DNA of 64,000 nucleotides from Echinarachnius parma (lineage: Eukaryota > Echinodermata > Echinoidea > Clypeasteroida > Echinarachniidae), in assembly GCA_037951105.1 (NCBI GenBank), contig JBAMJV010008350.1:29792-93791 (forward strand), given 5' to 3'. The notes beneath the pieces are model-generated. The model ran no database searches. It worked only from the letters and a program-made list of their open reading frames with translations, and was not told the DNA's origin. The translations under genes and the position numbers were made by a program. Shown piece by piece: positions 9,307 to 47,490 of the stretch (its first letter is position 1; each line of letters starts with the position of its first letter).

Positions 9307-12300
9307 TCACGAATCGGATCCGGAATCGCTAATGTCGCTGTCGCTGAAATCGTATCCCCCAAGGAGGCTCAGCCCGCTGGATTTCTCCTTGGTCGCTATC
9401 TTCGATGCCGCCGTTTGTTTCGCCAGCCCCTCCTGGATGCTCCTCGCGAAAAAGTCCTCCTTATCCTCCTCTTCCTTCTCATCCTTCTTCTCCGACGAAA
9501 CCGCTTCGCCAGAGTTTTCACTTTCGCTCGCTGATGTGCCAGGTTTACTTCCAGTGGGTTCTTTCTGGATACTGGTACTGTTTGAGGATTCCACTGTTGT
9601 CCCACTAACTGAAGTTTGTATAGTGTTGGCAGGTGTAAGTGTTGTCCCACTAGCTGAAGTTTGTGTAGTGTTGGCAGGTGTAAGTGCTGTCCCACTAACT
9701 GAAGTTTGTGCAGCGTTGGCAGGTGTTAGTGTTGTCCCACTAGCTGCAGTTTGTGTAGTGTTTGGAGGTGTTAGTGTTGCCCCACTAGCTGAACATTGTG
9801 TAGTGTTGGCAGGTGCAAGTGCTGTCCCACTAGCTGAACATTGTGTAGTGTTGGCAGGTGCAAGTGCTGTCCCACTAGCTGAACATTGTGTAGTGCTGGC
9901 AGGTGCAAGTGCTGTCCCACCAACTGAAGTTTGTGTAGTGTTTGGAGGAGTTGATGTTGTCCCACCTACTGATGCTTGTGTAGTGTTGGCAGGAGTGGAT
10001 GAACTCTTTTTCACCCTGACGAGTCCAGACAGTAGGGCTTTAGAGGACTTCTTTGATGAAGAACTAGAGCCGCTTTCTGCAAACTTCTGCTTCTTGATAT
10101 CTGGCGAATCCTGTAACAAGAAAAGGATATAGAAATATTGAAAATATACAAATTTAATAACTTATCACGTTATAAGTTAACTAGCATGAGCATTGAAAAG
10201 AAATTGTGAAGTACCATAATTATGCTGTGGCTTCAAGCACTGGTCTAGCCATCTAGAGGTCTTTGTATCAATTCCCAGCGAAACCCAATTTTTATTTGCT
10301 AACTACAATTTAATTCATTTCTTGTCAGGATTCCCTACGTTTTAAAACATACATACTATGTAAATCTTTTCAAAGCGCTTAGAAGGCTTGCCTGCTGTAA
10401 GCGCTATATAAATATACAGTCAAACCTGTGTATAGTGACCACCCAAGTGAAACAAGAAAAGTGGCCACTGTAGACAGGTGACCTCTATAGACAGGTTCTA
10501 TATTGTTTTTCTCTGCAGCGGATCATTTCTGGTGGCCACTATAGGCAGGTTGGCTGCTATAGACAGGTGGCCACTAAGACAGGTTTGACTGTACATTATT
10601 ATTATCATCCTTCTTGAACAAAACTGTTTTGCCAGAGCAACTCTACAAAAAAATAAAATAAAACTGTACATGTATAATAATTTCTACAACGATAACTGTT
10701 AATTTCGTTTAAACAAAATTCATTATCATTTACCTCTGTCAGGAAATCTGTTGGCCTTTTGTTTAGGTTCGAGTATGAGGGAGACGGTTTGGACAGGTCA
10801 TCCTCTTCATCATCATCGTCGTCATCAGCGAGCCTCTTGATGATGATGCCATCTCCTCCTTCCTTGCCAAAGAGTCTCCTGAAACACAACAAAAGACAGA
10901 AACATTTAATTGTGATTTAGATAGTAAAATAGTTTAAGCTATTTATATGGCACACTTGCAGTGAAATAAACCCATTTCTATTCACCATGTACTTCTTCAT
11001 CATAATGATGCCATCTTCACATTCTTTGCCAAAGATTCCTGAAATACAAAAGAAAGAATAGACAATAAAACACTGTAATATTGTGTTTTATGACATTTAG
11101 CTAATATCTTGTCATGATAAATTCATGACTTTGATATTGGACACCGACAGTAACCCAAGTCTGAATCTATCCACCATCGACACCATCATAATCGAGCCTC
11201 TTGATAATGATGCCATCTTCCCTTTCCTTGCCAAAGAGTCTCCTGAAACACAAAAGAAACATTTAATAGTGATTTAGCTAGTAAACAAAAAAAAACAATT
11301 CTATATGTACTATTCATCAGCGAGCCTCTTGATGATGATGCCGTCACCTCCTTCCTTGCCAAAGAGTCTCCTGAAACACAAAAGAAATAATAATAATAAT
11401 AATACAGCGGAATTATCCACCATCATCATGCTTTCACGATTATGATACATGTCAAACTGATGACGTCACCCTTATGGCTCTACAAACCCATTTGCCTGGG
11501 TCAAATTAAAATAAGTTGTACACAAGTACAATTTGATGTCAATTGCCTGAGCAATCATAATTGTCATTGTCGTCGTCATCATAATCACTACTCCCACTAC
11601 CACCACCAAAACCATCCTTGCATACCTAATTTCTGCCTCATCTTCCTCCTCCTGCCTGCTCAGATTCTCTGCCTCAACCTCGGCTCCCTGTTTGAGAATC
11701 TCCTCATAGTTGATGGCCCTTTTCCTCATGTTCAGCTCCCTGAGTTCCTCTAGATTCTCCATCACTTCCATCTCCAGTTTGGAGTCCTTTGTCCTATTCT
11801 CCAAAAGCTGGAAGATAGAAATATAGGTTGAAGGTATGTTTTCATTAGGTGATGAAAAGGTATATTGATTGATTTGTTGATAATTGATTCAAGTGCTTGA
11901 TCATCGACTAGAATAACAAACAAATCATCATACAGTAGTTCATAGCTCTTATCCTCATGTTAAATTCCCTTAGTCCCTCTAAATTCTCCATCGCTTCCAT
12001 CTCCAGCTTTTTTCTTCTTTTTTTTTTTTTGTGGGGGGGTTATTGTGAAAATATGAACCTATGGGAATGCACTTTAACCAATATACCTTGTAAATAACTT
12101 ATGAAATTCAGCCTCGGCTGTGAGGAAGCCATTTTTTAAATGATTGAATAGAACTTAATTGAATATTCAATGTGTTCTTACCTTCATCGGGTTGGTTGCA
12201 TCGTCCTCGGCCTGTTTCTTATCTGCCTCCTCCGCAGCTTGAAAGAGTTTGACGGCCTCAAACAACCTGGTGGCCCCCTGCTCCAGGGTGTAGTCTTGGT

Positions 12301-15300
12301 TCTCAGGATCAGTCTGCAAAAACAAACAAATTATAGTAATTTAAGAATCGACCACATTCTATAATTGTGTAGGGGTATAACTTGAAAAACAACCTTGTAG
12401 CTTAATCTCAGGATCGGTCAACAAATGGACAAATCAAAGTAATGATTAATAGATCTAGAAATAAACCTCATTCTTACTTATAAAGTTTACAAAACTTTTG
12501 AATGAACTACATTCAGAGAGCCTCAAACAACCGGGTGGCCCCCTGCTCCAGCGTGTAGTCTTGGTTCTCAGGATCAGTCTACAGAAAACAAATGATAGCA
12601 ATCATGAATGAAACGTATAAATGAACTACATGTACGTTCTATGATTGTAAGAATTTGACAGCCTCAAACAACCTGGTGGCCCCCTGCTCCAGGGTGCAGT
12701 CTTGGTTCTCAGGATCAGTCTACAAATGAACACATCAAAGTAATGGTTAATAACATATTTCTAATAAATAAACCACATTCTTAGAATGTATAAAGTTAAC
12801 TAAGTAAATAAAACAAAACTTTTGAAAGAACTACATTCTATGATTGTAATAGTTTGACAGCCTCAAACAATCTGGTGGCCCCCTGCTCCAGGGTGTAGTC
12901 TTGGTTCTCAGGATCAGTCTGAAATCAAAGAACAAATGATACGAGTATGAACTATTTACGCAGCCTGAAAGAGTTTGACAGCCTCAAACAACCTGGAGTG
13001 CAGTCTTGGTTCTCAGAATCTGTCTGAAAGAAAAAGAACAAATGATATGAGTATGAACTATTAAGAAATCAAGACAAAGCCACAGTGATTTATAAGCCTG
13101 GCACAAACAGGCCAGACAATCAACAATCAACAATCACAACATTGATACTTAAAAAAATAAAACAACAAATAATTAAAGGGACTTAGTAACATTGTCCAAA
13201 TCCTAAAAATCCAATTTGAATTCTAGCGATTCCCTCATACCTTGTTGTATTCGTATTTGTAAGATATGTACGAATGAAGTGTTAAGATAATAAAAACTCT
13301 GTTGGAGTTTTAAAACCGTGTACAAAGTGAGTGCAGTGAGTTAGTGAATATCACTTTGCATTTTTGCTCATTACTCGGCCATGCAACGTCCATTTGACTT
13401 GAAATTTTCACACAATATCCTGTGGACATATCAGATAACAACAATATACATTGGATCAACCATTCATCACTTTTTGCACACGTCAACAAAGTTACTAGAT
13501 CCCCGGGGGGGGGGGGGGGGGGGGGCACTCATGTATAATGTAAGACGGGTATGTGCCGCTTAAAAGACCCCCTTTTTCACACTCGATCACAGCTCTAAAG
13601 ATACCTGATTTTCAAAAATTTCTACTCCATAGACCCTCGGAATGACTTGGCTAGGTAGTTGAGTAGCGACAATCCATTATTCTTCTTTTAGTTCGGCTCC
13701 ATAGACCCCCGGAATGACTTGGCTTTGTATTTGAGTAGCGCCAAATCCATTATTCTTCTTCTAGTTCGGCTCCTTATAGACCACAATTTGAGCCTTTTTG
13801 AGGGTTTCCGTAGATATTTGGAATCTCCGAGTCTATATGTATTTTGTAGTTTTAGTCTGCTCCTTAGACCCCTTAACTCCTCTTTCAGGGATTTTGTAGC
13901 TCCAAAGACCCTATATTTTGTGCGTTTCAGGGATTTTGTAGCTCCAAAGACCCTATATTTTGTGCTTGTAGTTAGCTCTTCAGACCCCCATTTCAGAGTT
14001 CCGTGCGGCACACCCCCGTCAAAAAATAATTCGAGTGCCCCCCCCAGGACTAGATCCCTTTAAGGAAGGAAGGATGGGACAACAAGAGAAGAGAGGATGA
14101 AAAAAGGAAGGATTAAATTATTATTATAAACGATTCTTTTACCTTGAAGACGACCTCCGATATGCATCGGGGGCATCTGATGTAGAAGCGGTAGATGCGC
14201 AGTCCCAGGTAGTTCTCATTGTGGACATTCTCAGTCTTTGCGTTGAACTTCTTCCCCTTATAGATATAATCATTGCACATCTTACATCTGTGATTGAAAA
14301 GGAGATTTTAAAGCATTACAATTTGATGCAAACAAACCATGATCAACATTTTATTTTTAATGGCAACTTTTAAAGCTTGCATGAAGAAGAATATTATAAG
14401 AATTAGTTTACCTATATACATTCAATATTGTATACAGTTTAGTGCAGTCCAGTGACCAGACAAAACCAAACAGGTACAAACAATTGATTATGGAAATGTT
14501 GGTATGCAAGTGATCATGCCTACATGAAAATTGTTTATTTTTATACAATTGTAATGAAGTATAATTCCCTACTAGATTTTGATATTATTATACACAGCAC
14601 ACCAGGTTCACAGGGGAAAAAAAAAATTGGGGGGGGGGGTGCTACTTTTCAAGTTTGCATGCATGAAAAAAACAATCAAAACATTGTTTTGCATTGAACT
14701 CTATGTAAATTTACAGGGGATCTTTTTGGCATTTTGGGGCATGTATTCAATCACTGCAGGTTCCAGTAAACAATGGGTTAAAGGACAATTTAAAGGGTAC
14801 CACCACCTAAAAATAATAATTTTTTTTTATAGAAAGGTAACATCTTTAGTATTCCATTCCTTCAATAAGTTCACAAAAATATGTTTTCAGAAAAAAATAT
14901 ATAATTGGAAAACGCATCACCATTCTCAGCCATGCGGTCTGAATGCGCAGACTATTATGCGAGCACAGCCAGCGGCGCTCTATGCAGAGCGAACGAATCA
15001 TCCGGGATTCTATTGACGTACGCGTAAATTGCATTGGCGCACTCGCAAATGCCTGGCCCGTGTGGAACCACGAGATAGCCGTGGTTCCGTAAGTGGTGGA
15101 AAATTAATTGCTTTGTTTATGAATTACACAACCCTTTGCAAAATGTTGGGTATCTATTTGATATCACAAAACGGTACCAAAACATATAATAATATGTTGT
15201 CCTTTGCCTGGTGGTCCCCTTTAAAGGGGAATTCCACCCCAGAAATGTGATGTTTGCTATAAAATGAAGTGAATATGAAGAATTATGATCGAAAATCTGA

Positions 15301-18300
15301 GCCAAAACGGTAGAGCAATAAAAAAGTTATGACAGGATGAACTTTGCTCCGATTTTTAGTATCGTTCGCAATTGCTATCGATCGTGACGTCACTTGCGAG
15401 CTGCAGCCATTTTGACTTCTACATGGAAATTTAAAAAAAAAAAAATTTCTTAATAAGAAAGCAAATTTATGAGCTTACAAATTCCAAAGAGGTTGGCCTA
15501 TCGATATTCTTCTATGAATTCGTGAAAACAAGCAGAGAAAATTTAATTTTTAGCAACGAAAATGAGAAATAAGTGTATTTTCATGTACTAAAGCCATGGC
15601 GAGTTGCTCGTCAATGATGTTGCATATGGCGGCAATTTTGAAACGATCGCTCATTACTACATGATGTTCAAATAGGTATAACTCCCGTGTTTCTTGTCCG
15701 ATTTTGATCAAATTTTCACCAATTATGCCTCTTATTCTGCTTATTCAAATAACGAAAGGTTTTATCAGGCCCGGAATACCCCTTTAAGGGTTTAATTTGA
15801 TTAAATGCATTTCGATACTGTTACGATTATTCCCTCCAAGGTAACATATCCACGGGTTCACAAGAATATGATAAACATATACCAGATGATAAAATGTAAT
15901 TTGGAACTCAAACTTTTAGAACACTGAATTCCGCAGATGTGGAGATCATATTGTAGGAATAGGCAATCCTTTATACTAACTTTGCACAAAAAAAGAAAAC
16001 AACGGAAACACATCGTGCATGTGTTAATATTAATTTTTTGTTTTGGCATGCATTTTAATAATTTCATTCTATTTGCATTAATATTGTGCATACATTTAAT
16101 TAGGGTGTTCCGGGGAACGTACGCTACCGGGGATGGGTCAGATTTAAAAAGTTCATTAAAATGTCAACAAAAGAGTGGGGTGGGGGAGGGGTACGACGCC
16201 CAAGCCTCTTTTTTCTTACCATGTGGAAGACGTTTTATATATCTTGCAGAGGTTGTTGTATCAATAAATTTGTGGTCGCTTTTATCTGACTAAAAACCCG
16301 CGGATTTCCGCGGGTGCCGCTAGTCAAGATACTATTACTATTATATAATACCACATGTTGTATGTTTATGTCATCATGGACCACCAGAGTCCTACTCTTT
16401 GACCAAATAAAATATCAATCACTTGTCCTGCCAACTACCGAAGTAATAGCTGTACAATGCAGGAATTAATTTTTAATGTTAGGGGGCTACTTTTCCAATC
16501 TGATGGATATCCAGACATTTTTCACAATACAGTAATTTTAAAGGCTACCTACCGATTTCAGGGGGCTATTTTGACAATTAGGGGGCAACATTGCCCTCAG
16601 CCCCCGTATATTTCCTACCCTGTAGCTGTAGCATCTTTATTTGAGTTTTCCCCACAAGTACAAGTCACAAACATAACAAAATACATTACATTACTCAGAA
16701 ATATAAAAGAAATGACTTACTGCATGTTAAATGGAGCCATGATTCTGACCGTGTACTGCCTCTCTTTGGCAAGCCTGAGCTTCGGGATCTTCGCCGGATC
16801 AAAGTCCGGAGGGTAGTATTTCTGTAAAAGAAAACAAGAAGTCAAATGTTATTATTAACCAATTGTAAGATATTTGAACAGAGTATCATGTAAATCCTCC
16901 GATATAGATGCCGAACTGCGATATCAATATACACAAATTTACATGATTTAGGAGAATATGCAAATAAGGTAAAAAGCCTAATTATGCTCATTATATCCAT
17001 TGTTAGAGGTTGCCACGGTGGCAACCAAGCTGAAATATCTTTAATACACATTTAGAATATGATTTCAAAGTAATAACGTGTTATTTTTGCTCATTATAGG
17101 CTGTAGCCACTGAAAATGAATAATATTCATAAATATGCAAATTAGGGGCAGTCATCTTTGATTTCAGGGTGTTACCCATGTAGGACGCAGATGGGCATCC
17201 GAAATGGAATCCTTACCCCAAAATACCCTGAAATTTGTTTTGATTACTATTGTACTATTCCTATACCGTAAAACTCCGTGTATAAGGCGCACCCGTGTAT
17301 AAGTCGCACCCCCAACTTTCTAAAAAAAAAAAAAACTGCTGCTCATGAATATTCATGTTTTCATTAGATAGCAATGCTCATTAAATATGCAAAATGCTAA
17401 ATTCATTAATAACTGTTTTTTAATGAGAAAAATGTATGACCACTGGTTAGAAAATTGAATATTAAATGAATGCTGCTACTCATGAACATTGAATAATCAA
17501 TTAGTTGCAGTGTAACTGCTTACAGTTACAAAACTTGTATTTTGTTTTACTAACCACTATCATTTGTATGTAGGAAAAAGGTATATGTTGATAAATGTTC
17601 CCCTCACATCAAGCTCTTGTCATGCCTTATAGACCAGTGTAATACACATTGAACATGATTCTTTAAAAAAAAAAAAAAAAAAAATTTGCTGTACCTGTGT
17701 ATAAGGCGCACCCCCGACTGAAATTTTTTCTGACGGAAAAAAGTGCGCCTTATACACAGAGTTTTACGGTATATCAACTGACCTCTCAACTTATTTCACA
17801 ATTATGCAAATTATCAAATTATCTTATAATGCTTATAAATAAAGTGCCCAAAGTTGCGAAGGTGGCAACCTCACTGATTGTCTTATAGAAACCATTTAGA
17901 ACATGAATAACCAAACAAATTGGACCAATGAACGTCTCCGAGCCTAATACACGAAATATGGGATCATCTACAGGACAAATGGCTCTGGTTTTTTTAAAGG
18001 TGCCAAAAGGCTTAATGGCACTTTGAGGGCCTGTATTTTTAAAAACATACTGAACTGAAAACTTATTTTTGTATTTTCTTATAGCATCCACCTAGATTGA
18101 TCTCCCATACCTTAACGAAAATATTTGGACTTCCCTTTATATAGGTCAGATAACCCTAAAGGGCCAATTGTTAACGGAAATTTGTCAACCAAAAATGGGT
18201 TCAATTATGTTCAGGTATAAAAAAACACTAAAAGATTTTTTTGTTTTTTTATTTGTTGATAATTATGAACGAGTGTGAGTTAAACTTTCAGAAAATTAAC

Positions 18301-21300
18301 GGCGCTTAGTATGTAAAGTAATATTTTGACAGTACAATGCCATCAAAATTGGTGTTTCGGACGTTACATCCTCCGTTAACAATTTAACCCCTCATTACCC
18401 CTACCAGTATCATAATTTATTGAAATGATATCAGTATGAAAATTGAACTAACAGTTTCCTCATCATATTGCCTAAAAGGGAAATGACTGATTTCTTAAGC
18501 CAGCGATTAACAAAAAAACAAACATGAAATGCACACATGCTCTCTTTTTCCGTTAACAATTTTGTAACGTCCGAAACAATATTTCTTTAGAAATAATTTT
18601 TAAAAGGGGGATAACACAAACAATTATTTATCTCAGTTTTGAAGAGACTTGATGTACCTTCCCATCACAGAAAAAAAAAATGCAATAACTTATTGTATTA
18701 TGATTATATCTTTAAAGTTAACTTTCCGTTAACATTTGTAACGTCCGAAACAAATGTAACGTCCGAAACCAAAAATGTAACTTATAAGCTCATAAGTCAC
18801 AGGAAAGGGCACATTATATGAATCAATCATCATAATATAAAATAGTATTCATTTTGAAACAAATTTACACATGAATTGGGTAATTAATTGCCAAAACAAA
18901 TGTTTGAGATCAACCAATATAAACAAATGCGTTTCGGACGTTACATGGGGTAATTGTTAACACAAAATTGATATTTTAGTGCATTTATTTTCAAAATGAT
19001 AATATATGGTTATTATTATTCATTTAGATCATGTAAATGAAACATAATCATCAAAATACATGATGCTTTAATAACATTTAGATGCTTAGTCTGCCCCAAA
19101 TCCACATTTTCACCAATTTTTCATCGATTTTTCTCAGCTAATTTGTAACCACTAAAGATTTACAAGACACTTGATATAGTGAATGATATGACTAATCTAC
19201 TTGGAACAATAACCTTTCTTTTGTGGAACTGAAACACTACCTGCTGCAACAACTCCTGTATTTTGTTTACCATTTACAGAATATTTTGTATGGTATTGTG
19301 AGCTCGTTTCGGACGTTACAAAATGGTGTTAACACACATTTTGATTGCACAAAAAATTCAATTTGGAACATTTAAAAAAGTATTATCTACATTTTTCATG
19401 ATCTATATGCTTCCTGCTCCAAGCAAAAGTGTTTTGAAAAATAAATTATCAGTTACATGTATTTGTCTCTGGGAAGGAACTTTTATTTATAAAATGTGAG
19501 GAATTGCTATTTTTGCCCCATAATTGTTCATGTGGGCCATTCTTGGTCACGTGTGTGACCCAAAACATGACAAATTTTGAAATGGGATGCTTATATTTCA
19601 GTAAGTATGAGACTATAATGATTTTTACTTCATAAGTGACTTGAATATGGTGTAGTCTTTCAAACTTAACACAAAAGATTTTATAAGGATTACGTAACTC
19701 AATGTCAGAGGTCAAATGGCATGGGTCACGTGTGTGACTTCGCACGGAGCGCTTTTTTCATAACTAAATTTCATTTGGAAAATTCTTTAAAATATGAATA
19801 GCTATAATGTTCATCTTATTACCAGAGAAGTACTATACATTTGTAAGTACAACAATAGCAATGAATGAGAAGTATATCAAACCGTTGTTTTTTATAGTAC
19901 TTAATTATGTGGCAACGTCTGGTCACGTGTGTGACATTTTGGGGTGGTCACGTGTGTGACATGTACAATATGAATGGAAAAATGGGAATTTTATAATATC
20001 GGGTTTAGAAAAGAATGAAAGGTTGAATTTTTACAAAGTTGGTATCAACCTGTACAGGAAAGTGAGAAGAATGAGCTTGCTAATTATCCTTTTGATATCT
20101 TGATTATTTTCTGAATTATGATTATTAGAAAAATATTGAAATATGTAAATTTATGCAAATGAGTAAAAAAGTTTAATTTTAAACTTCAAATCATGTATTT
20201 CATGAAACTTTACACATGGATCATTCCAAATATGGAACAAAACTACAGAAAAATAAAACTTCAATTTTTCCGAAAAAGTTTCACTTTTCAAAGAATGGCC
20301 CATGTTGTAAAGTACACACAGAACTACATGTATAGTGTATACTGATTTTGTTTTTTTGTATCACATCAAATGCATTATTAGGTTGATTGCCTTTATAATG
20401 TTCTATATAAGAAACAAATGTTAAGTCTCTGTTTCATTATTCATTTAGTGGAAATATAGACATTTTCATTAACAGAGCCTTTTAGTGGTATACAAAAGTA
20501 CAGTATAACTATGCTAAATTTACTCAAAGTTGCAAAACATGTTTTTTCATATACTTAAACTTGATAAGAAGAAAATAAACTGCGTTGATCCACATGTTTT
20601 ACTGACACTAATTAAAATGTTAATCATTTGTATTAAAAAAATCCACATGTTAAAACAAGTTATTTTTGAAATACTATATGGCATATGCCATTGTAAACTA
20701 TAGGTACAGTACATGTACACCAAGATAATTCCTTATCTTATTCTTAAGGCAATTTCCAGAACATCACTGGTTTATGATCAATTACATTTTTGCGCAAGTC
20801 AGCTATGTTTGAAAAATGTAACCATATCTGCTGGAACAAATATATTTTCTTGACCATAACCTTATGTGGTACATACAAGTGTACTGTACATGTGCCATTA
20901 TAACTTGAATTTGAGGTATTGCTAATATCATATTGATCAGTAATGCATTTATGACAGTTATTCTAATTTTCTATAATAGTTTGATAATAGTTTGATAAAA
21001 TTAGTTTGAGCTTCATGTTTTATCAAAATAAGAAAATGGAAAATTCAAATCATATACAATGTATGTCATTGTACAATTTACATATACATGTACAATGTAC
21101 TTTTATCTTTTGTAAAATGATGAAGGAAACTCTGGAAAGTCACATCGATCATCCTTTGACTGTATATTAATAACAGTTTCTAATTGCATGTAATATTTGT
21201 ACAAAATCTTGGATTTTGTCTATCAATATGGACTTCATTCACTATCCCTTTCGTTGGGAGTTCAATTAATGCACATATTTATGGGTTTTGCTTGCAAAAT

Positions 21301-24300
21301 CGTGCAAACAAAGCGAGTTAAGATATGTTTTGAAGTGATGTTAACACCATGTAACGTCCGAAACAAAATAGGGTATGTCATAACATAATGCAACTTTACT
21401 ACAATAAATTACAGATCGCAATTCTCAAATTGTAGTTATTGTAGTACTAGGTACACAGTACTTCATAATTTCACTAAAACCCTTAAAATTGTCTCTACTT
21501 TGGAGATCTGAACATATAATTATATATAAATCAAGTTTACATGTACTGTACTGTACTATAATGTCTATGGTTGATAGAAGACCCCTTTCTGTGCTATGAA
21601 GTTAATTTGACCATTTCAAAGAAGAATTTGGATAGATTTACATCTAAACATATATTTTCTGTATTTAAATATTCCAAAATAGCAAAGATTTAAACCACAA
21701 CTGGTCATAGAAGTGTAAAAAAAAGGGTAAATGTTAACAATGTGTAACGTCCGAAACACATACAAGAATCAAATTTGAATTTTGTTTGCAAGTGTCTTGC
21801 TCCAATTTTATATCATGTAAATATGTCCTATCATGCAACCTTCTCGCCAGTGTATAAAACACTTGGCGGCGCCGCCAAGCGTATGAGTTGGTAGAGTTTC
21901 CCGCGCCAAGCGCAAACTTCCCCCGCCAAGTGTGCCGCCAAGCGCAATATTCAGCGCCAAGCGCCTGAAGTAAATTGCAAATAAATCATGTTTATACAAA
22001 CAGTTTCTCATGCTAAATGTTACGGAAATGTTTTCACCGCATGAAAGACTTTCTCATCATATTTTCTGCGGCGATTTCCCATTGATATGCGATCCCTATG
22101 CGATTTCCCTGCGCGCGCGGTCGTCGCGAGTATCTCAGAAACGAACCTCAAGACTCCCAGTCACACGTCGGAAAGCGTTCGGAAGCGGGCCAGGCGGCGC
22201 GGCGGGCTGCCCCGCGCCAGGCCGCTATGCGAAGAGGTGCTCTAGCTCTGATCGCGGAGCACCGTGCACGCACGTGGCCGGTTTGTTATTATTGTACGAT
22301 CGACAATAGCATTTTGTTTTCGCGTATTATGATCAGAGAAAATCATATATATGATTTTCCCGCGATCATAACACGCTACTACATGTTTTGATAATAATCT
22401 AACATGTTTTATTTCATATTTGCTTTCATTTACAGACAGTCAGACACTGAGAAAGGGATCGTCCAAATAGAGCTGAAGACGGACGCACAACATGAGACGG
22501 ATCATGCTGGGCATGAGATAATTATATTTATAAGACAAAGGGATTATAGATAGTTAAAGTCATAACCAATTAAGGGGAATAAACAATGAGGGCATTTTGG
22601 TCCGACTTGAGCGATTATAAGGAAACGTTAATTGGCTGTATAAGCTGTAAAATAATACCTAGACATGATCAACAGTTAGAACTTAGATTCGGATATAAAT
22701 GGAAAATAAATTGATAGAGAAAAAAGGGACAAACGGCATCAGATAACGGCCCGGGGAAAACAAACATGCAGAAAGAAAGGTTTAAGTTACAAACTTTCAT
22801 AGGATAGCTGATAATTTGTTTGCACAAAGATTAATCATTGGACTGAGGACGATCATGCCATGATGGGATAAGGATGAGGAAATAATAATGAAGATGGTGT
22901 GAGCATGACGATCTCGGGCATGTATGATTATGATATCGGAAATGATGAACGGATGATCAAGATGAGGATGACGGTGATGATTATGACATGAATGATGAAC
23001 GGACGAGGATGATGAAATGATAATGAAGATGATGAGCATGACGGTGGGGATGCATGATTATATCGGAAATGATGAACTGATGAATGTGATGGTAATTATG
23101 AAATGTGATGATCAAGATGAGGATGACTGTGATTATGACATAAAGGATGATGGTGCATGATCGGTGATCACTATATTATTGTAAAGCGCTTAGAGAAGAT
23201 TATCAATCATTATTAGGCGCTATATAAGTCGAATATATTATAAATTCCTACTGAAGAAAATTATCAGTGATGGTATACAAGGCCCGGTGTTTCTCCTTGG
23301 CGAATTATGAAAATATATCCCGACTGATGGTCGTCAGACGGACCGACACGAGACATTAAGATGGAGAGAGGCGAAGCCAAGGAAATAATATGTCGAACTG
23401 AGGCAGAGGCAATACCGCGATTACAGTACAAAATGTAAGTAGTGAGATTAGCTTGAATTGTTACTTTATGGGTGTTACGGGTTGGTCCTCGATACAATTC
23501 GAGTTTGACCCCCAATTTATATTTGTTAAAAAAAGGAATGGTGTGTAAATAAAATAAGTACGTGTCCCCATTGAATAATGTGCGTGCGCGCACCCCCCCC
23601 CCCCTACCCCACCCACCCCATACCCAGACCAAGAGTAATACGCTGTCAGAAGCAGTATAGTAAATTCTAAAACCCTATTCAACCCAGCCCGTACGCAAAT
23701 TATAGTTTCTCATGAATTTTTAAATACAAATATCAGAACTATCGCAACCTCGCCGTCAAGTCCATGATCAATATTAAATTATTTTCCAATAAACTACTTT
23801 CAAATCTCCAGAAAGACAGCCAAAGATAAATTTTGCGTCATTTTAACAGTGAGATACACGTTCAAATTGTGACTGTAAGTTCATTGCATTGGCATTCGTG
23901 TGTGCAGCTGCATGCTGCAAACAGTCCATGATTAGAACGTTGAAACGACGTAAAATACCATTTGTGTTTTCTTTCGAAGCATGCAAGTAGTCTATTCGAG
24001 GTAAAGGTAATTTAATATCAAACATGAACTTACCAACAATGATTCGGCGATCAAAATATCTTACAAGTTTTACGTGACATTATTTACGGTGATAGTATAA
24101 TAATCACGACTCGATCTCTGTGTGTACGGCCAGCTGTACGGTACCTTGTACATACATGCAACATGTACGTTCCCGGTCCCGCCCGCCCTAGCTATTTAGC
24201 AATTCAACTTCAACTTGCCTTACGATGTTATCGTTGTTATTTAGCTTTCAAAATCCACCACGTGGCGCGCGTGTGTTGTGTGATCACATCGCGGCATAGA

Positions 24301-38400: not shown

Positions 38401-41400
38401 GTTCTCTTTCCAACATGTCTTTCTTATAGGATTATGAAGCGTATCATTATCTCACTCTTTGCCTTGCTTCTGGTGCTGCACACTGGGAGAACCATCAGGA
38501 GGAATCGTGACTGGTGAGTTTATATTTTCCTTTTTAAATGTAGATTTGTATCATTATTAGTACTTTTTGTGTGGTTATTGTCTTTGATTGATTACATTTG
38601 TTATATTCATAAGTATTATTTATATTTGTTTCATTGTTTGTGTGGAAAAAATATTCACAATCATCATTATCATCTTCTTGATGTCAGTGATGATGATGGT
38701 GATGGTCGATGATGATAAATTATTTTTATTTGTACACAATCAACTTACTATTTTGAAAGTTTCACAATCAGTTGAACCTCTTCAAAGATGATGATGATGA
38801 TGATGGTGATGATGCTGGTGATGGTGATGATGATAATGATGATGTTGTTGATGATATGATGATGATGATGATTTTGATGATATGATGATGATGATAATGA
38901 TGTTAATAATAACTAGTATGATGATGATTATGATCAGTATTCTTTTCATTTTCTTCTCTACCCAGGGAGAGTGAACTGACTCTCTTTCAATCTGCCCTTA
39001 GAGTGACAGAGAACAATGCCAAAGTGTGGAACAACGTCGGCCATGCCCTAGAGGCACAGACTCGGTGGGAAGAGGCATTGAAAAACTTCAACAAAGCTGC
39101 TTCGTAAGTTACCTGCTAATATTCTTTGTTATTTTACTTATTAGCAGTATTTTATTCTGTCCAGAACACAATATTTTGTCCTCAGGATGCTTGTGATATA
39201 AATCGATGAGATATAGGGTTAGATTTAGGCTTAGGCTTAGGGTAAGAGTTAGTCTAGCAATCAGATTCTGTACAACTTTTGAGGAAGAAGATCACCACCA
39301 TCATCACATTGTTCATTACTTTTGTAAATGCTGTTATGTAATGTTACTATGAATAAATAGCATACAGTACCTAAATGCATAATTGTAGTAATAAATTTTT
39401 GGTGCAAATATAACTCCAGAATTCAGAAAGATGACATGTGGGCATGGATGAACATGCGGAGGGCCGTCCGCCATCTTGGAAAATGACCACTAACGCAGGT
39501 TTGACTGTATTTTATTTTGTATCAACCACTGATCTAGAATTCAGCCGGATGACATACATGTAGGGGCATGGATGAACATGCGGAGGGCTGTCTAGCTGCC
39601 ATCTTGGAAAATTGACCAACTTGGAAGATGACCACTAACAAAGGTTCAACTGTATTTTATTTGTTATCAACCACTGATTTAGGATTCAGCCGGATGACAT
39701 AGAGGCATGGATGAACATTGGGCGAGTCTACCGCCATCTTGGAAGATTGGTCGACTCTGAAGATGCATGACCACTAATTTGTAATGATAAAAAAGAGGTT
39801 TCATTTACACAGGTAAATATAGGTGTGACAGTATTTTTTATTTTTTCAATCAACCACTGATCTAGAATTCAGCCGGATGACATAGGGGCGTGGATGAACA
39901 TGGGTAGAGCTTACCGCAATCTTGGAAAACTGTCCGACTCGGAAGCGGCATACCGAAAGGCAGTGGACATGATGCCCAAGACGATCCCGGGACAGCGCTA
40001 TGTGACGCAGATAGACCCAAATCATCTCAACGTATACCTCAACTTGGCCAACCTGATCAAAGATGATGAGAGCAGATTGAAAGAGGCTGAAGAGGTTAGT
40101 TGAAATTGCCTTCCATCAGTGCCTCTCAGGCCCACATATTTGTGGTTTGGTAGTCCTACACTTAAACAAGAATAAGACTAGTTATGTGAAGTGTACAGGA
40201 AGAAAGAGCATAAATCCCTCTATTTTTAGAGCCCTATTTTGTTACTCTACCTGCTTTCGTTATTTTTTAATGATTTTTATTATTGCGTAAATCACTATAA
40301 TTTAGAAACATCCTTAAATTGGCAACACATTGTGATATTGTAAAAACAGATATTGGCATTCAAATTGGCAACTTTGTGGCAAAGTCACTTCATATTTGTC
40401 TTACATGGTCATTACTAAATATTTTCCACCTATGTTTATGTCATTGATTGGTCAACAAAAGTTAGGAGTTGCCAATTTGTAGAGGAAAACAATGATAAAT
40501 TTTGCCTTAAAATAGCTCTCGTCCTTGATGGGTTAATAACAAGGTATTTGTTTTTATAGAGGCGGTACAGTGGTGTAATCAGTGAAAATAATAATAAATA
40601 ACATTTGTGGAGGTGTTATGGCATGATCCATGCAAAAAAGTTAGTCTTCTACATGTACCTATAATTTCAATTGTACCTGAAGGTGATTGGGATGCGGCCT
40701 GACTTTGTAGAGGCTTACATAAACCAGGGATAGCTGTTATTAATACAGTGAAACTTGGACCAAGCAGATACTCAACTTTGAATAGTATATAATGAACACT
40801 TTTTGATACATCATCATGAGTTGTACGAAATTTAAAGTTAAGCAGCAATATTTTATATTTTTTATTTGTAACTCTTCTTAATATCTTTATCTACATGTAC
40901 TTTGCAGTTGTATATGAAGGTGATCGGTATGAGGCCTGACTTTGTGGAGGCTTACACAATCTTGAATCATTGAATGATTGCCTGGAATAGTATATTGAAC
41001 ACTTAAATCATCATGCACTGTGTGAAATTGTCTATTAAGCTGCAGTATGAAAAGTTTGTCAATAAAACATTTTTGTCTTATATTCTTTACTTTAAAGTTG
41101 TACTTGAAGGTGATCGGAATGAGGCCTGACTTTGTGGAGGCTTACATAAACCAGGGAGAGTTGCTACTAAGACAGGAAAAACTGGACCAGGAACTTACTC
41201 AACTTTAAATAATATACTGAACGCTTTTTAATACTTCAATATGAATTGTATAAAATTGCCTGTTAAGCTGTCATATTTAGTATTACTTAACGCTTTCCAA
41301 TATCTTTATCTACTTTGCAGTTGTATTTGAAGGTGATTGGAATGAGGCCTGACTTCGTTGAGGCTTACATAAACCAGGGAGAGTTGCTACTGAGACAGGG

Positions 41401-44400
41401 AAAACTGGACCAGGCAGAGTCGTTGTATCAACAGGCTGTTAATCTGGAACCCCTCAATGCTGATGTACATTTTAACGTAAGTTATTTGATTCCTTTATTC
41501 TTTTTGTATTTCATTCAACACAGTAAGTTTTATTCCTTGAGTTATTCTTCCACTATAATACACGTATTGTATCACCAGGCAGTTCAACGGAAACCACTGA
41601 ATGGTGGTGTGCATTTCAATGTAAGTACATGACATCTGTTTGCTCTTTATTCTAACATACATGTAGTACACATGTGACCTGTCACCACAAAACTATAGTT
41701 GCAATATTTACATTTTCTACAGACTGCTGTTGGCGACTTGGCGTATTATCAAACTATCTAAATTTGGTATTTATACATTCTCAAAAATATCAGCTTTCTA
41801 GTGATAAATTACTTATTGTAAAGGGTCTGAAATCCAGCAATGCCATGGACACTGTATTGCCAAAGTCATTTATTTTTCCCAATAGAAATTGGCCATTTCA
41901 GAAGGGTTTTGTGCAAACGGTTCACACATTATTTTATTTATCTATCTGCCATAATATTTCAAGGGCCTTTCTATTTCCACTCCACTTCCACAGCTTGGTG
42001 TGGTATCTATGAGGAAGAGGGAGAAACAAAAGGCTCTGAAGCACTTTGACCGAGCGGTGGAACTGAATCCTAGCCACAAGATGGCGCTCTACAACTCTGC
42101 GCTCTACATCCAGGAATCAGGCAACGTGGCTCGCAGACAGGATGCAGTCAAGAGGTAATGTAATATAAAGTACTGTAATTGAAAAAGAGCAAAGAAAGTG
42201 GGATTCCAACGGGATTCTAACCCGAGACCTCCGGATTGCTAGACCGGTGCTCTTACCGACTAAGCTATAGACAACCCTAGTATGGCGTTCGTCCCAGAAA
42301 CCCCTTAATTTTCATTGCTCGTGAGGTCAGAAGCTATTATAAACCTGAACGATAGATATCAACTTGGGGATATACATGTATGCGAGGTATCACCAAAGTG
42401 ATGCAGCTTTTAAACAAAATAATTAATTCAAACATTCAAAAAGTACTGTACACGGCAGTTCTGACATAACTGGCAGCTTCCTCAAAAAAATGTTTTTTTT
42501 CTACAACAGCAGATTCTATCCTCTTTATGAAAAAATATCACCCCTTGATGTCGCTCCTCTACCAGCCGCTGGACCTGTATGTGAACCATGGAGGCAGCTT
42601 GCCAGAGACGAGTAGTTAAACATCGTCGCCAGTGTGGCAAAGATACCACGAGTCTCCTTTTTGATCCTGAAAAAATGGAACCTGTCATTATTTTCTACCC
42701 AAGTAAATTTTTTAGAAATGACAACCCCACCGATATACCTCTGTTGTCATGATTTCACAAATGGACTACAATGTACGAGACTTGCGCTTTAAAAAGTTTA
42801 AGTTAAAGTCCTTCCCGTGCCAATTTTGGCACATAAGGCGGCACCTTTCTCTGATTCATTAGCCCTAGGTCACACGTCTACTAAATGTAGCGAAAGCTAC
42901 AGAAGGGGGCCAGTCTATATATTATTATGTTCTTGATGTATCATCGTCATTAAGCATCTGAAGAAGATTCTGCTAGGATCAACAATTTAGGCTCTATAAT
43001 GACTCTTATTTTATTACACAGGCGTAATGATAGTAGATAAGCAGTTTTTAGCAGTATTTTGCATCGTAATAATTTTTTAGTGCATTATTTGTTTTCATGG
43101 CACACATTTATTTAGATTGGAGAAAGTTGTTGAGTTGGATCCAGACAGTGAGCTGAGCTATTCTACCCTGGGCATGTTGGCCATGGATGATAATAACAAC
43201 CAAGCTGCTGTGACTTACTACCAGAAGGCTTTACAGGTAAACAAATATCTATTGATGAGGCTGAGAAAGAGGATGATGATGATAATGATGATGATACTGA
43301 TGGGTATGGTGATGATGATGATGATGATGATGATGATGGTGAGGATGATGATAGTTGTGGTGGTGGTGGGGGTGCTAATGGTGATGATGATGATGATGCT
43401 GATGCTGATGATGATGATGGGTATGGTGATGGTGATGGTGATGGTGATGGTGATGGTGATGATGATGATGATGCTGATAATGGTGATGGTGGTGGTGATG
43501 ATGATGATGGTGATGGTGATGTTGATGACAACCATAACATTGATGGTTTCTTGATGGTGATTATGATGATGATAATAAGGGTGTGTAGGTGAGGTGGAGT
43601 CGGGAGTACCAGAGAGTGAGCTGAGCTATTCTACCCTGGGCATGCTGGCAATGGATGATAACAACAACCAAGCTGCTATGACTTACATGTACTACCAGAA
43701 GGCCTTACAGGTACAAAATGAGGATGAGGATGAGGATGATGATGGTGATGATGCTGATGATTATGATGATGATGAGAAAGGTGATGATGGTGATGGTGAT
43801 GAAGATTACGATGACAATGCCTATGGCAATGATGATGATCATGACATGGATGTGGAGGAGAGGTTGATGAGAAGTAACAAGAGAAAGCGGATGAAACTGG
43901 ATACTTAAGAAAATGGGAGAAGATGATGAAGTGCAGGAGGTGGTAATTAACAGAAACTTTATTTTCTTCACTATTAGATTAACCCTACTTCTCGCCATGC
44001 CCTCTTCAACATTGCCCTGATTCACTCAGATGCCAAGAAGCCTCTGGAAGCAATGCCTTATCTTGAAACACTCTTACAGGTAAGACTCCATATATATATA
44101 TATTGCCCTAATATAATGCTCCCGAGGGAGTAAAAAGTTTACCTCAGCATATGTCAGAGCTAGCTTACCAGGTTATCAGTGACTGGATACGCCACTTATA
44201 ATGACTGGAGTGATAATTTCTGTCTCGAATGTCTTGAGATTTGTTGCTATATTCATAGGTGTTAATAGTACGTTGGAACTAAGAATAAACTTAACAAATA
44301 ATGTGCAGTCAAACCTTTGTTTATTGATCACCTAAGTGAAACAAGATAATTTACCACTGTAGACAGGTTACCTCTATAGGCAATATAACTACTACACTTT

Positions 44401-46126
44401 CACTTATAGACCTGGGGGCGAGAGCTCGAACATGACCCAGGACCAGCCCTAGTTCCACTGATCTCTAGATATACCTGTGTAATCCTTGACGGTTGAATGA
44501 GTTAGGGAGGTATGCATGCTCTGTTGAGTTCTTTTGATTCGTATGCTATTTTAGCATATTGACATCAATGAGTTAGACCCAATGATGCTAATTACCATGG
44601 TAAATGTCGCTGGTCCGTAATCGAGCCCCCGGGCCCTGGTATCAAAATTTTGTATTTATTCAAATTTACATGCATATCTGTTGGTTTTCTCTCCAGCACC
44701 ACGCCAACCACACCAAGAGCATACTGCTTCTAGGAGATATCTACCTTACCCCAGTGCTTCCCCCCTGATCCCCATGGCTACCCGCATTGTAGCATCCGCA
44801 CAAATTACAATCTTTATCAATATAAATTGTTCTCTGTCTGTTCTCCCTCCAGCATCATGCAGACCACACCAAGAGCATGCTGCTCCTAGGAGATATCTAC
44901 CTTTCTCCATTGCCCTCCCCCCCCCCCCCCCCCCCCCCCATGGCTACCCGCATTGTAGCATCCGCACAAATTACAATCTTTAATCAATATGAACCTTTCT
45001 CTGTCTGTTCTCCCTCCAGCATCATGCAGACCACACAAAGAGCATGCTGCTCCTAGGAGATATCTTCTTTTCCCTAGTGCTTCCCCCCTGATCCCCATGG
45101 CTACCCCCCCCCCCCATGGCTACCCGTATTAGCATCCCCACAAAAATGACAATCTTTAATCAATATGAATCGTTCTCTGTCTGTTTCTTGCTCCAGCATC
45201 ACGCCAACCACACCAAGAGCATGCTGCTCCTAGGAGATATCTACCTCAACTCTCTCAAGGACGTCTCTGGAGCTACACAAGTAAGTACATTTGCTCTAAG
45301 AGAAAACTTTTCATGCCTCACCCAACGAAGTGGCCGGAGGCATTATGATATGGGGTTGTCTGTCTGTCCGTCCATCCATCCGTCCCGTTTTCATTCACTC
45401 GATATCTTAATGATAACCAGTTGACAGATCAATTCGAAATTTGGTATATGTGTCCAAGTGGCCGGAGGCATTATGATTTGGGGTTGTCTGTCTGTCCGTC
45501 CATCCATCCGTCCCGTTTTCATTCACTCGATATCTTAATGATAACCAGTTGACAGATCAATTTGAAATTTGGAATGTGTGTAGATATCGGGGTGAAAATT
45601 ATCTTATTAGATTGGGGGGTCATAAGGTCAAGGTCACAAGGCTCCTTATATATATATGCAAACATAGCTTGTAATCCCAATATTACAAGAACTGGATGAT
45701 GAAATACCATCAGACATGGTACCTGTATGTATCTTAGAGAGCCAACAAACTGGTCAGATTTTGGGGACAAAGAGTGCTACGCAAAACAGTTTTCTGAGTG
45801 CTAAATTATTGTACATAAGCTTGACAAATTTTCCCTTGTGTAATGTACTTTTTTTTCTCTTTTTTTCTTCATTTTTATCATTCTTGCAGATGTTTCAGCG
45901 CATCGTGGATCTGGAACCGTCAAACATCCAGGCCCAACACAACCTGTGCGTCATCTTGGTTCAGCGGGGTAGATTGCATGAGGCGGAGAAGTGTCTGTTA
46001 GATGTCCTCAAACTGGCACCCCAGGCTGATTATATCAAGAAAAACCTGAGCATTTTGAGACATCAGTTATCTGTCAAAGGAAATAGTGATATGGGAAAAG
46101 TAGATCGAGATGTACCAGAAAGGTGA
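32420..46126 (+). CDS. TMTC3: TMTC3, transmembrane and TPR O-mannosyltransferase, complete, sixteen exons
   Basis: Exons: 32420-32626, 33239-33457, 34979-35078, 35597-35712, 36146-36333, 36929-37181, 37812-37960, 38430-38513, 38966-39103, 39866-40094, 41321-41476, 41994-42154, 43116-43236, 43978-44079, 45197-45280, 45890-46126. Every join keeps phase; product 847 aa. Residues 12-32 form TM1, followed by the acidic luminal loop FAFDD (D37-D38) and [58 protein letters not shown] and [20 protein letters not shown] (DUF1736) and [17 protein letters not shown] follow human TMTC3 closely. TPRs run from about 444 to 835. Known role: ER membrane enzyme that adds O-linked mannose to cadherin domains, with luminal TPRs. 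Met at 32420 was preferred over the in-frame Met at 32318, because the upstream codons (MQDYDYDYEG...) precede a family-like start. The human C-terminal tail of about 70 residues is missing; [15 protein letters not shown] ends the frame. Confidence 0.93.
33090..33142 (+). repeat. Partial copy of TMTC3 exon 2 start
   Basis: ACAGGCATATGTGAAGCCAC then AAGTCATATTGCCCCCTCTG mirrors the acceptor and first 35 bases of exon 2 (33235-33275). It lies about 150 bp upstream, with matching intron sequence ahead. Confidence 0.8.
33723..34219. mobile_element. Foldback element with ~155-bp arms, TA flanks
   Basis: Arms 33723-33878 and 34063-34219 are inverted copies (CAGAGTGTCCCAGAAAGG... and ...CCTTTCTGGGACACTCTG); TA lies on each side. 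The central 180 bp is unique and non-coding. Probable mariner-type non-autonomous element in TMTC3 intron 2. Confidence 0.85.
34350..34678. mobile_element. Repeat with CAGGGAAAAA-type ends and GGGGGCTAC words
   Basis: Starts near ATCAGGGAAAAAATTAAT and ends TATTTTTCCCCCTGTTAT, a rough inverted repeat. It contains three TTCGGGGGCT words. Related sequence occurs at 16461-16625 (AGGGGGCTA words, CCCCCGTATATTTCCTACCC end) and at 14605-14745. Confidence 0.5.
34790..34880 (+). repeat. Copy of the TMTC3 exon 3 start with a triplicated acceptor
   Basis: The acceptor word GTATCAGGTGACAG occurs three times in succession (34800-34836), then GAGTGGTAGGCTGAGCAGAA follows. The real exon 3 starts at 34979 with the same word. 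Confidence 0.85.
35222..35290 (+). repeat. Copy of the TMTC3 exon 3 end, downstream
   Basis: CATCTTTATGCTACTTGCAT, TCATGGCTTATTCTAAGGTA and CAGGTAAGAAAC reproduce the last half of exon 3 with a donor-like GTAAGA, shortened before the donor. Confidence 0.8.
37238..37360 (+). repeat. Copy of the 3' half of TMTC3 exon 6 with its donor region
   Basis: Reads [20 protein letters not shown] then LYGLFQNG, nearly identical to the real exon end at 37072-37181. The following GTGGTAAATACATC matches the real exon's donor region. It lies just downstream of the donor. Confidence 0.9.
38680..38940 (+). repeat. (GAT)n microsatellite
   Basis: Long run of GATGATG/GGTGATGAT units in TMTC3 intron 8, ending about 25 bp before the exon 9 acceptor. 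Confidence 0.9.
39414..39775 (+). repeat. Three partial copies of the TMTC3 exon 10 start
   Basis: Copies at about 39414-39500, 39530-39640 and 39672-39775 share CACTGATCTAGAATTCAGCC, GGATGACAT, GCATGGATGAACAT and CCGCCATCTTGGAA with the real exon at 39866. Each retains an AG before A(A/G)TTCAG. The frame is lost in all (for example GACATAGAGGCATGG retained, then indels). Confidence 0.92.
40672..41200 (+). repeat. Three partial copies of the TMTC3 exon 11 start
   Basis: About 40672-40770, 40898-40970 and 41087-41200 reproduce GAAGGTGATCGGAATGAGGC, CTGACTTTGTGGAGGCTTAC and ATAAACCAGGGA with the intron words TATCTTTATCTAC and TTTGCAG before them. Units recur every 190-225 bp, so intron end plus exon start was duplicated as one block. 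Confidence 0.93.
41558..41625 (+). repeat. Copy of the TMTC3 exon 11 end with donor
   Basis: TATCACCAGGCAGTTCAACG then GGTGTGCATTTCAATGTAAG parallels the final 55 bases of exon 11 and its GTAAGT donor. Confidence 0.8.
42201..42277 (-). mobile_element. tRNA-Ala-like SINE head
   Basis: On the minus strand an A-box-like TAGCTTAGTCGGT, an anticodon arm CCGGT-CTAGCAA-TCCGG (anticodon AGC) and a B-box-like GGTTAGAATCC are spaced as in a tRNA. The acceptor stem pairs imperfectly (about five of seven) and B-box C-G-A is T-A-G-A-A, so this is more likely a tRNA-derived SINE than a working gene. In TMTC3 intron 12, antisense. Confidence 0.55.
43255..43560 (+). repeat. (GAT/GGTGAT)n microsatellite
   Basis: Dense GATGAT and GGTGAT repeats in TMTC3 intron 13. 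They generate spurious methionine-, serine- and isoleucine-rich frames in several phases. A shorter related run lies at 43715-43860. Confidence 0.93.
43590..43712 (+). repeat. Downstream copy of the TMTC3 exon 13 body
   Basis: [20 protein letters not shown] can be read here exactly as in the real exon; then [11 protein letters not shown], a 6-bp insertion relative to VTYYQKALQ, followed by GTACAAAA rather than a good donor. No clear acceptor remains. Confidence 0.9.
44693..45080 (+). repeat. Three partial copies of the TMTC3 exon 15 start
   Basis: At about 44693-44755, 44846-44915 and 45014-45080: TCTCCAG/CTCCAG acceptor, then CA(C/T)CA(C/T)GC..ACCACACCAAGAGCAT and CTAGGAGATATCTAC. Between them GATCCCCATGGCTACCC and a C tract recur, so each unit (~160 bp) is exon start plus a shared intron filler. 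None continues into [12 protein letters not shown]. Confidence 0.93.
45310..45700 (+). mobile_element. Partial copy of the 'GTGGCCGGAGGCATTATG' element
   Basis: CAACGAAGTGGCCGGAGGCA, TCTGTCCGTCC(ATCC)n and TCGATATCTTAATGATAACC, with one internal ~110-bp tandem repetition. The fuller relative is at 56790-57696. Confidence 0.75.
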
Positions 46127-46189
46127 CATAGTTAATAAATGATACTCAGTAATGAGAAATATGTATCCTGTAGACGTCTTTAGAATAGC

Positions 46190-47490
46190 TCCTAATGCTA
46201 TTTTTATAGGTTGGAAAAAAACCTGATTTTATCAAGAAGAACCTGATCATTTTGAGGCAACGGTTATCTGTTAAAGGGATCTAGTAACTTTGTTGAGATG
46301 TGCAAAAACTGATGAATGGTTGATGCAATGTATACTGTTGTTATCTCATATGTCCTCAGGGTATTGTGTGAAAATTTCAGGTCAAATGGACAATGTATGG
46401 CCAAGTAATGAGCAAAAATGCAAAGTGATATTGGGTGATATTCACCAACTCACTGCATTCACTTTGTACAGGGATGAAAATCTCGCCCGGAGATTTTCTT
46501 ATCTCAATACTTCAATCATACATATCTTTGTAATGAAAGGGAAATTTGAAAAACCGAAAGCTGTCCCATGATTTTATTGTTAATACGAATACAACAAGGT
46601 ATAAAGGAACCGCTAGAATTACAATTTTATTTTGAGGATTTGGACAATGTTACTAAGTCCCTTTAAAGGAAATAGTGATATGGCAAAGGGAGATAGAGAT
46701 GTACCAGAAAGGTGACATACTAAATAAACGAAACTTGATCATCTTTGTATCATCTAGACGTCCTTAAAATGGCTCCTAGCGCTAAATAGGTCTGAAAAAC
46801 CTGATTATATCAAGAAGAACCCTGCAAATTTAGAGGCAGCAGTTATCTGTGCAGAAAAAGAATGATATGGCAAAGGGAGATAGAGCTGTACCCAAAAGGT
46901 GACATACTAAATTCAGTAATGAGAAAAAATGTATCCTTTAGACGTCCTTAGAATACCTCGTAGTATGCTAAATCGGTTGGAAAAACCTGATTATATCAAG
47001 AAGAACCTGACAACTTTGAGGCAACAGTTATCTGTGCAAGTAAATAATGATATGGGAAAAGTTGAGAGAGAGAGATGTACCAGAAAGATGACATACTAAA
47101 TAAATGAAACTCAGTAATGGGAAATGAATTATTTAGTCGTCCCTAGAATGGCTCCTAGTGCTAAATAGGTCGGAAAACTTGGATTTTATCAAAATAACCT
47201 GCACATTTTTAGGCATCAGTTAATATCTGTGCACTAAAAGAATGATATGGGAAAGGTAGATAGAGATGTACCAAAAAGATGACATACTAAAAAAACAAAA
47301 CTCAGTAATGAGAAATCTATCATTTAGACGTCTTTCAAATGGCTCCTAGTGCTAAATAGGTCGGGAAAAACCTGATTATATCAAGAAGAACCTGAATATT
47401 TTGAGGCCGAAGTTATCTGTGCAAGAAAATAATGATATGGGAAAGGTAGATAGAGATGTGCCAGAATGATGACATACAATGTACTAAATA
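46190..47490 (+). repeat. Five partial copies of the TMTC3 last exon, downstream
   Basis: Copies at about 46200-46274 (continuing 46667-46740 after a MITE), 46785-46905, 46970-47105, 47180-47300 and 47365-47480. Each repeats TGATTATATCAAGAAGAACC, TTTTGAGGCA.CAGTTATCTG, AATGATATGGGAAAGG and a post-stop GACATACTAAATAAA. So the unit is exon end plus 3' UTR, about 190-200 bp. All are past the stop codon and cannot be coding. Confidence 0.93.
46275..46662. mobile_element. Intact TTAA-flanked MITE
   Basis: TTAA at 46271-46274 and 46663-46666; ends AGGGATCTAGTAAC and GTTACTAAGTCCCT. It splits one exon-16 copy exactly at TTAA: the flanks rejoin to ATCTGTTAAAGGAAATAG, matching the coding exon's ATCTGTCAAAGGAAATAG. 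Same family as 13177-14059. Confidence 0.9.

Follow-up and report, generated by a model that had tools for sequence, protein, structure and literature searches.

Why should the ends of exons be repeated, in part and beside the real exons, in two neighbouring genes? The question is raised by a stretch of 64,000 nucleotides from Echinarachnius parma (contig JBAMJV010008350.1, positions 29,792 to 93,791), here called the window, in which a sequence-only reading had described tandem partial copies of exon ends in a gene of the TMTC family and in a YJU2 gene. The partial exon copies are real. We propose that their arrays are of a type published as mirages, that is, decaying local duplications over exon–intron boundaries that are tolerated and are mostly intron debris, and we place the probability of this explanation at about 0.72.

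Partial exon copies in two genes on opposite strands

The genes concerned are the following, in window coordinates.

32420–46126, + strand: TMTC-family gene, 16 coding exons, 847 amino acids (Pfam PF08409 and TPR repeats)
9307–27931, − strand: YJU2 gene, 7 coding exons, 510 amino acids (Pfam PF04502, E 3.5e-93)

Both gene models are clean: the real exons alone give full-length proteins, and the exon copies lie within introns. Residues 1–279 of the YJU2 query align to PDB chains named CCDC94/splicing factor YJU2 (E 7.8e-85), and a PDB search with the TMTC protein returned TPR proteins among the best 60 of 148 rows. The paralogue label TMTC3 is that of the sequence-only reading; the gene is called TMTC-family here. 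Exon 7 of YJU2 contains a coding tandem repeat of its own at 9595–9993, with a unit of 45 bp (15 residues), about 8.9 copies and an intact reading frame.

Each exon, extended by 60 bp on both sides, was searched against the surrounding 2.5 kb on either side, on the same strand and with low-complexity sequence masked (E ≤ 1e-3). The search gave 34 match rows, 33 of which include exon bases. Copies adjoin 12 of the 23 exons of the two genes at E ≤ 1e-3 and at 1e-6, and 11 of 23 at 1e-10. In the TMTC-family gene the exons with copies are 1, 2, 3, 6, 10, 11, 13, 15 and 16 (9/16), exactly the list of the sequence-only reading; in YJU2 they are exons 4, 5 and 6 (3/7), the earlier list having named 4 and 6 correctly and missed 5. 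Copy identity ranges from 70 to 97%, except for one 24-bp match at 100%, and the alignments cover 24–165 columns. No copy of a whole exon was present among the 34 rows of this local search. The earlier description of the copies as partial, mostly upstream with the acceptor kept and never complete is thus borne out, as is its statement that two unrelated genes on opposite strands, TMTC-family (+) and YJU2 (−), share them. The arrays are listed below.

31884–32540, + strand: array at TMTC exon 1 (32420–32626), with upstream copies at 32046–32090 and 32170–32297 and a match without exon bases at 31888–31937
33036–33289, + strand: array at TMTC exon 2 (33239–33457), a single upstream copy with acceptor
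34789–35280, + strand: arrays at TMTC exon 3 (34979–35078); upstream, an acceptor copy at 34825–34874 and a 24-bp match at 34789
35231–35280, + strand: downstream copy of TMTC exon 3, with a GT donor 1 nucleotide past the copy; the alignment ends 12 nucleotides short of the exon end
37071–37363, + strand: array at TMTC exon 6 (36929–37181), downstream donor copy 37242–37363
39415–39951, + strand: array at TMTC exon 10 (39866–40094), three upstream copies, exon parts from 39420, 39538 and 39683
40659–41626, + strand: arrays at TMTC exon 11 (41321–41476), three upstream copies, exon parts from 40671 (AG lost), 40908 and 41098
41567–41626, + strand: single downstream donor copy of TMTC exon 11
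43141–43806, + strand: array at TMTC exon 13 (43116–43236), downstream donor copy 43609–43758
44677–45246, + strand: array at TMTC exon 15 (45197–45280), three upstream copies, exon parts from 44697, 44853 and 45020
46026–47562, + strand: array at the terminal TMTC exon 16, whose coding part ends at 46126; the coding tail and the DNA that follows it are matched seven times downstream, period about 191/385 bp
12239–13062, − strand: array at YJU2 exon 4 (12182–12313), four upstream copies, exon parts from 13023, 12918, 12719 and 12578
11707–12009, − strand: YJU2 exon 5 (11626–11807), one upstream copy of an internal stretch, 11936–12009, the alignment including no splice site
10822–11399, − strand: array at YJU2 exon 6 (10734–10878), three upstream copies, exon parts from 11370, 11242 and 11038

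The 18 acceptor-side copies fall into seven arrays, five of which have three or four upstream copies (TMTC exons 10, 11 and 15; YJU2 exons 4 and 6) and two of which have one (TMTC exons 2 and 3). Donor-side copies lie downstream of TMTC exons 3, 6, 11 and 13, and those of exons 6, 11 and 13 align through the exon–intron junction. Acceptor-to-acceptor spacings run from 105 to 265 bp; the unit range of 60–225 bp given earlier holds for 16 of the 18 and falls short of the full span. One donor copy lies 468 bp away with a microsatellite in between. Microsatellites of the GAT type occur in the TMTC introns at 38787–38934, 43272–43528 and 43718–43814, and one of them separates exon 13 from its copy.

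As controls, random non-exonic intervals that avoid the copies (n = 150 per region) were searched in the same manner at cut-offs of E ≤ 1e-3, 1e-6 and 1e-10. Matches were obtained, at these cut-offs respectively, for 6, 6 and 5 intervals in the TMTC introns, 37, 14 and 7 in the YJU2 introns, 43, 35 and 27 at 1–9.3 kb, 32, 0 and 0 at 27.9–32.1 kb, and 27, 17 and 16 at 47.6–64 kb. The control rates therefore span 4–29% of copy-avoiding intervals, against 12 of 23 exons. When copies were not avoided, the rates rose to 68/150 in the TMTC introns and 42/150 in the YJU2 introns, because the copies then match the exon.

Relation to known duplications

Mirages were reportedly first described in Nucleic Acids Research in 2002. 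The term denotes tandem duplications of exon–intron boundaries, published in amphioxus for Adh3, the globins BflGb6 and BflGb9, troponin C and PGBD5, the last two added by the second of two papers (PMC3087553, PMC3902484). Among the literature matches listed, the term was seen in this sense only in these two amphioxus papers, while the word also stands in others, such as PMC7960049; this does not settle its use outside amphioxus. The sequence-only reading held that no described mechanism fits the copies. That statement cannot stand beside the published mirages, although PMC3087553 itself describes their origin as unclear.

The anatomy of the amphioxus cases, with copies spanning the exon–intron boundary, is that of the TMTC and YJU2 arrays. 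Many but not all mirage copies keep AG or GT, compared with 17 of 18 acceptors and 4 of 4 donor-side copies here. The published units measure 10–160 bp, against spacings of 105–265 bp, and the BflGb6 units are 81–100% identical, against 70–97%. Mirages are further characterised by an undisturbed mRNA, by copy-number polymorphism or somatic instability, by edge units that escape homogenisation, and by their occurrence in cephalochordates. The passages presenting the published cases have one or two boundaries per gene, whereas here 12 of 23 exons are affected in two adjacent genes.

Two other kinds of duplication come close. Rogers-model intron gain, which proceeds by tandem duplication and is linked to mirages in PMC3087553, likewise places a duplicated stretch containing AG or GT within a gene, but no recruited intron was found here: the real exons yield full-length proteins and the copies lie inside introns. 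The arrays also resemble tandem exon duplication in being local, same-strand duplicates of exon sequence. In tandem exon duplication whole exons are duplicated with both splice sites, whereas no match row here covers a full exon. Transposon capture was considered as a source of the copies and rejected, as the copies are local, on the same strand and joined to adjoining intron sequence, even though Helitron-like DNA lies at 6.2–6.4 kb.

Haplotypes or misjoined reads placed side by side by the assembly could also produce repeated exon ends, and one amphioxus mirage was indeed misassembled in a draft genome. For the present arrays we regard such an artefact as very improbable. From haplotypes laid end to end one would expect long duplicates with hardly any differences, whereas these copies differ by 3–30% with insertions and deletions, the many substitutions having already been raised as an objection by the sequence-only reading; they are truncated, number up to seven per site, have inner homology that is unit-specific and occur in both genes. 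In amphioxus, moreover, the PGBD5 repeats were confirmed by re-examined and new reads, though the authors still name heterozygosity as possible (PMC3902484).

A proposed origin

An array of this type would begin with the head-to-tail local duplication of a stretch that crosses a boundary and has its two breakpoints on either side of it, in intron and exon; re-amplification would have brought the arrays to 4–5 units at five places. Such a duplication would be tolerated, since it leaves intact an entire exon and both of the splice sites belonging to it. A duplication confined to an exon, or one that takes in all of it, would alter the protein and be lost, and for that reason only partial copies would be seen. 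With breakpoints placed in this way, copies should be partial without exception, those of acceptors lying upstream and those of donors downstream, and this matches what is seen. The copies would then stay as decaying intron DNA. As one partner, the real exon, changes slowly, they would remain recognisable longer than duplicates lying wholly in introns. Under exon definition, splicing would most likely choose whichever acceptor lies closest to the real donor. Copies that are kept too well for simple decay, with those of TMTC exon 11 as the foremost case, have probably been renewed through gene conversion, with the real exon as template.

Splice sites and reading frame of the copies

The scoring matrices for copied acceptors were built from the 21 real acceptors, in each case without the exon to which the array belongs. 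The AG is kept in 17 of 18 and lost at the outermost-listed copy of TMTC exon 11 (c1, 40671). In comparison with its own real acceptor, the copied site is weaker in 12 of 18, stronger in 5 and equal in 1. This combination of a kept AG with a weakened site in most copies is as expected of decay from a working acceptor. Over 553 intronic AG sites in the TMTC gene, the median score is −5.9. All four donor-side copies have a GT donor, with scores of 5.6–11.3 against 3.0–10.6 for the real donors. From each of the 18 copied acceptors, an in-phase reading runs into a stop codon ahead of the real acceptor, and at least 10 of the 30 copies contain an in-frame stop or an indel that is not a multiple of three.

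The copies might instead be functional, with decoy acceptors or donors adjusting how transcripts are spliced, for instance by diverting some of them to nonsense-mediated decay, or, in the case of exon 11, with the copies serving as translated exons. The retained AGs, the universal in-phase stops and the strong donor scores would agree with such a role. We nevertheless consider it improbable: frames are damaged in at least 10 of 30 copies, 12 of the 18 copied acceptors score below their real counterpart, and early stops past the end of a copy are what AT-rich intron sequence is expected to give.

Observations that weigh against simple decay

Not all of the data are what tolerated, decaying duplicates would lead one to expect, and the points that count against this explanation are considered together in this section. 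The first concerns splice sites. Before the next acceptor, a donor-like GT scoring at least 3.0, the value of the weakest real donor, follows 8 of the 18 copied acceptors, and one of at least 5.0 follows 4 of 18. Random intronic stretches of the same lengths contain such a GT in 1302 of 2000 cases (at least 3.0) and 784 of 2000 (at least 5.0). A missing donor, which had been considered as the reason why decoys are ignored, is therefore not a rule, since 8 of 18 is not clearly fewer than the random proportion.

The second point is the concentration of the arrays on exons. Across the whole window, 20 arrays of local direct repeats passed the cut-offs (spacing 30–700 bp, at least 40 bp, at least 45 bits, low complexity masked). 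Exon sequence is contained in 9 of the 10 arrays of the TMTC span, one being purely intronic, and in 3 of the 5 of the YJU2 span, two being purely intronic and the coding 45-bp repeat of exon 7 being left out. Under random placement with the observed unit lengths, the fraction of arrays in each gene span that touch an exon by at least 25 bp is predicted to be 0.34 for TMTC and 0.12 for YJU2. In simulated decay, duplicates at exon edges remained detectable up to about 0.3 substitutions per site per lineage (half-loss) and intronic ones up to about 0.21, a difference of about 1.4-fold, which corrects the TMTC expectation to 0.41. Detectability alone was thus tried as the cause of the bias and is insufficient for TMTC, where the excess beyond it has P 0.0023 at 1.4-fold and P 0.011 at 2-fold. 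For YJU2 the corrected values are P 0.032 for the whole gene and 0.25 for its 3′ part. When events that selection should remove are left out, P becomes 0.0006 for TMTC, 0.008 for the whole of YJU2 and 0.10 for its 3′ part. The TMTC exon bias is not fully explained by chance or detectability, while that of YJU2 is uncertain; the earlier wording, that duplication is targeted to or tolerated at junctions, was accordingly a fair one.

A mutational process that prefers exon–intron junctions, for example through breaks or template switches tied to transcription, R-loops or steps in base composition, would account for this residual bias, and both genes are affected by the copies. It is nonetheless an unlikely explanation. 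Only two genes and 15 arrays are available, the significance for YJU2 varies with the introns that are counted, and exon and intron differ in composition and in low-complexity masking, for which the simulation allows in part.

The third point concerns the rate of change in the copies. Over 675 codons in 30 copies there are 115 synonymous and 113 nonsynonymous differences. The ratio of synonymous to nonsynonymous differences is 60:45 between real exon and copy and 47:50 between copies, whereas under neutrality 26% of random single changes are synonymous; without exon 11 the ratios are 40:39 and 30:44, and the synonymous share is still above neutral. The intron halves of the same duplications served as a clock, with the 11 copy–exon pairs whose halves can still be aligned (z ≥ 4.7) retained and the others dropped. 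On the assumption that the exon stays fixed while the copy changes freely, and with a lenient gap cost, 29.1 nonsynonymous and 17.0 synonymous differences are expected in the nine pairs outside exon 11; seen are 29 nonsynonymous and 26 synonymous ones (P 0.026 for the latter). Stiffer gap costs raise the nonsynonymous expectation for the same pairs to 39.9, 54.5 and 71.1 against the 29 seen (P 0.044, 1e-4 and 1e-8). The intron mismatch hardly shifts over the first three gap costs in five pairs (TMTC exon 10 c2, exon 11 c2, exon 15 c2 and c3, and YJU2 exon 4 c3); for the other six clock pairs the intron alignment itself is doubtful. The data are compatible with neutral decay of the copies outside TMTC exon 11 without proving it, and because the clock depends on the gap cost, constraint or conversion may extend more widely. 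Coding selection outside exon 11, suspected from the many synonymous differences, was rejected on the lenient clock and reopened by the expectations of 39.9–71.1 under stiffer costs.

At exon 11 itself the inner copies (41098–41191 and 40908–40959) carry 2 nonsynonymous differences against 15.9 expected, even with the lenient cost, and all 11 pairs together carry 31 against 44.9 (P 0.018). The nonsynonymous deficit is clear only at this exon. We prefer gene conversion from the real exon as its probable cause; the copies may instead be used as exons, one inner copy having a donor-like GT (score 4.7) and the other none above 1.1. Depletion of nonsynonymous change at exon 11, and overall under stiffer gap costs, would suit functional copies as well, but outside exon 11 the deficit disappears with the lenient cost, and gene conversion would give an equal deficit.

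The last point lies in the intron parts of the arrays. Intron homology between the inner copies and the flank of the real exon is significant at TMTC exons 10, 11 and 15 (z 5.3–23.4), where, in favour of the proposed origin, homology spans whole units; it reaches z 5.1 and 5.7 at TMTC exons 2 and 3, and some YJU2 pairs are significant too, with maxima of 12.6 at exon 4 and 9.5 at exon 6. The outermost copies of TMTC exons 10 and 11 share no intron homology with the inner copies, those of TMTC exon 15 and, less clearly, YJU2 exon 6 have little (z 2.0–4.6), and YJU2 exon 4 gives a mixed picture. In its exon part, the outermost copy is as near to the real exon as the inner copies at TMTC exon 15, and is the nearest of all at YJU2 exon 6. 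With respect to edge units that escape homogenisation, as in mirages, these observations point both ways. Apart from poly-C, short marginal matches (E ≥ 0.02) and, in the exon 10 array, one end of a dispersed repeat, nothing else in the window was found to match the DNA between copies. The founding events were therefore not simply one clean tandem duplication each: such an event would not predict outermost copies that lack intron homology, nor would it suffice for sourceless DNA between copies. The dispersed repeat lies at 10408–10610 and 44292–44382, and one of its ends recurs in the TMTC exon 10 array, within intron sequence.

Other features of the window

The sequence-only reading had counted a non-coding scatter at 4.5–7.4 kb as a product of the same process. 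This region lends the idea no support, because it is at least partly Helitron-like or transposon DNA: 6225–6462 encodes a Helitron-like N-terminal domain (PF14214, E 2e-10), with a 92% copy at 4490–4721. Further features are the following.

53339–53943: imperfect palindrome of about 600 bp, 81%
58057–60909, − strand: Toll-like receptor gene in a single open frame of 951 codons, encoding leucine-rich repeats and a TIR domain

Significance

The kind of structure described here is already known, as mirages; what is new is how densely it occurs, the remaining exon bias and the good preservation of the exon 11 copies. A density of 12 in 23 exons suggests that mirages are countable in some animals, so that their rate, their exon bias and their link to intron gain would be measurable in one genome. 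Gene prediction calls for caution at such loci, as copied acceptors resemble exons. The repeat families and a Toll-like receptor gene contained in one open frame would suit a marine deuterostome, for instance a sea urchin or amphioxus. In an amphioxus the arrays would add one more case to those described there; if the host is not an amphioxus, as the deposited name has it, mirages would be extended to another lineage. A bolder possibility, which we hold to be rather unlikely, is a lineage-wide duplication process started at junctions, by which roughly half of the exons of ordinary genes would be ringed with fragments bearing splice sites, some of them kept protein-like by conversion or by use as exons. 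Were that the case, such fragments would be a lasting supply from which new splice sites and introns could arise.

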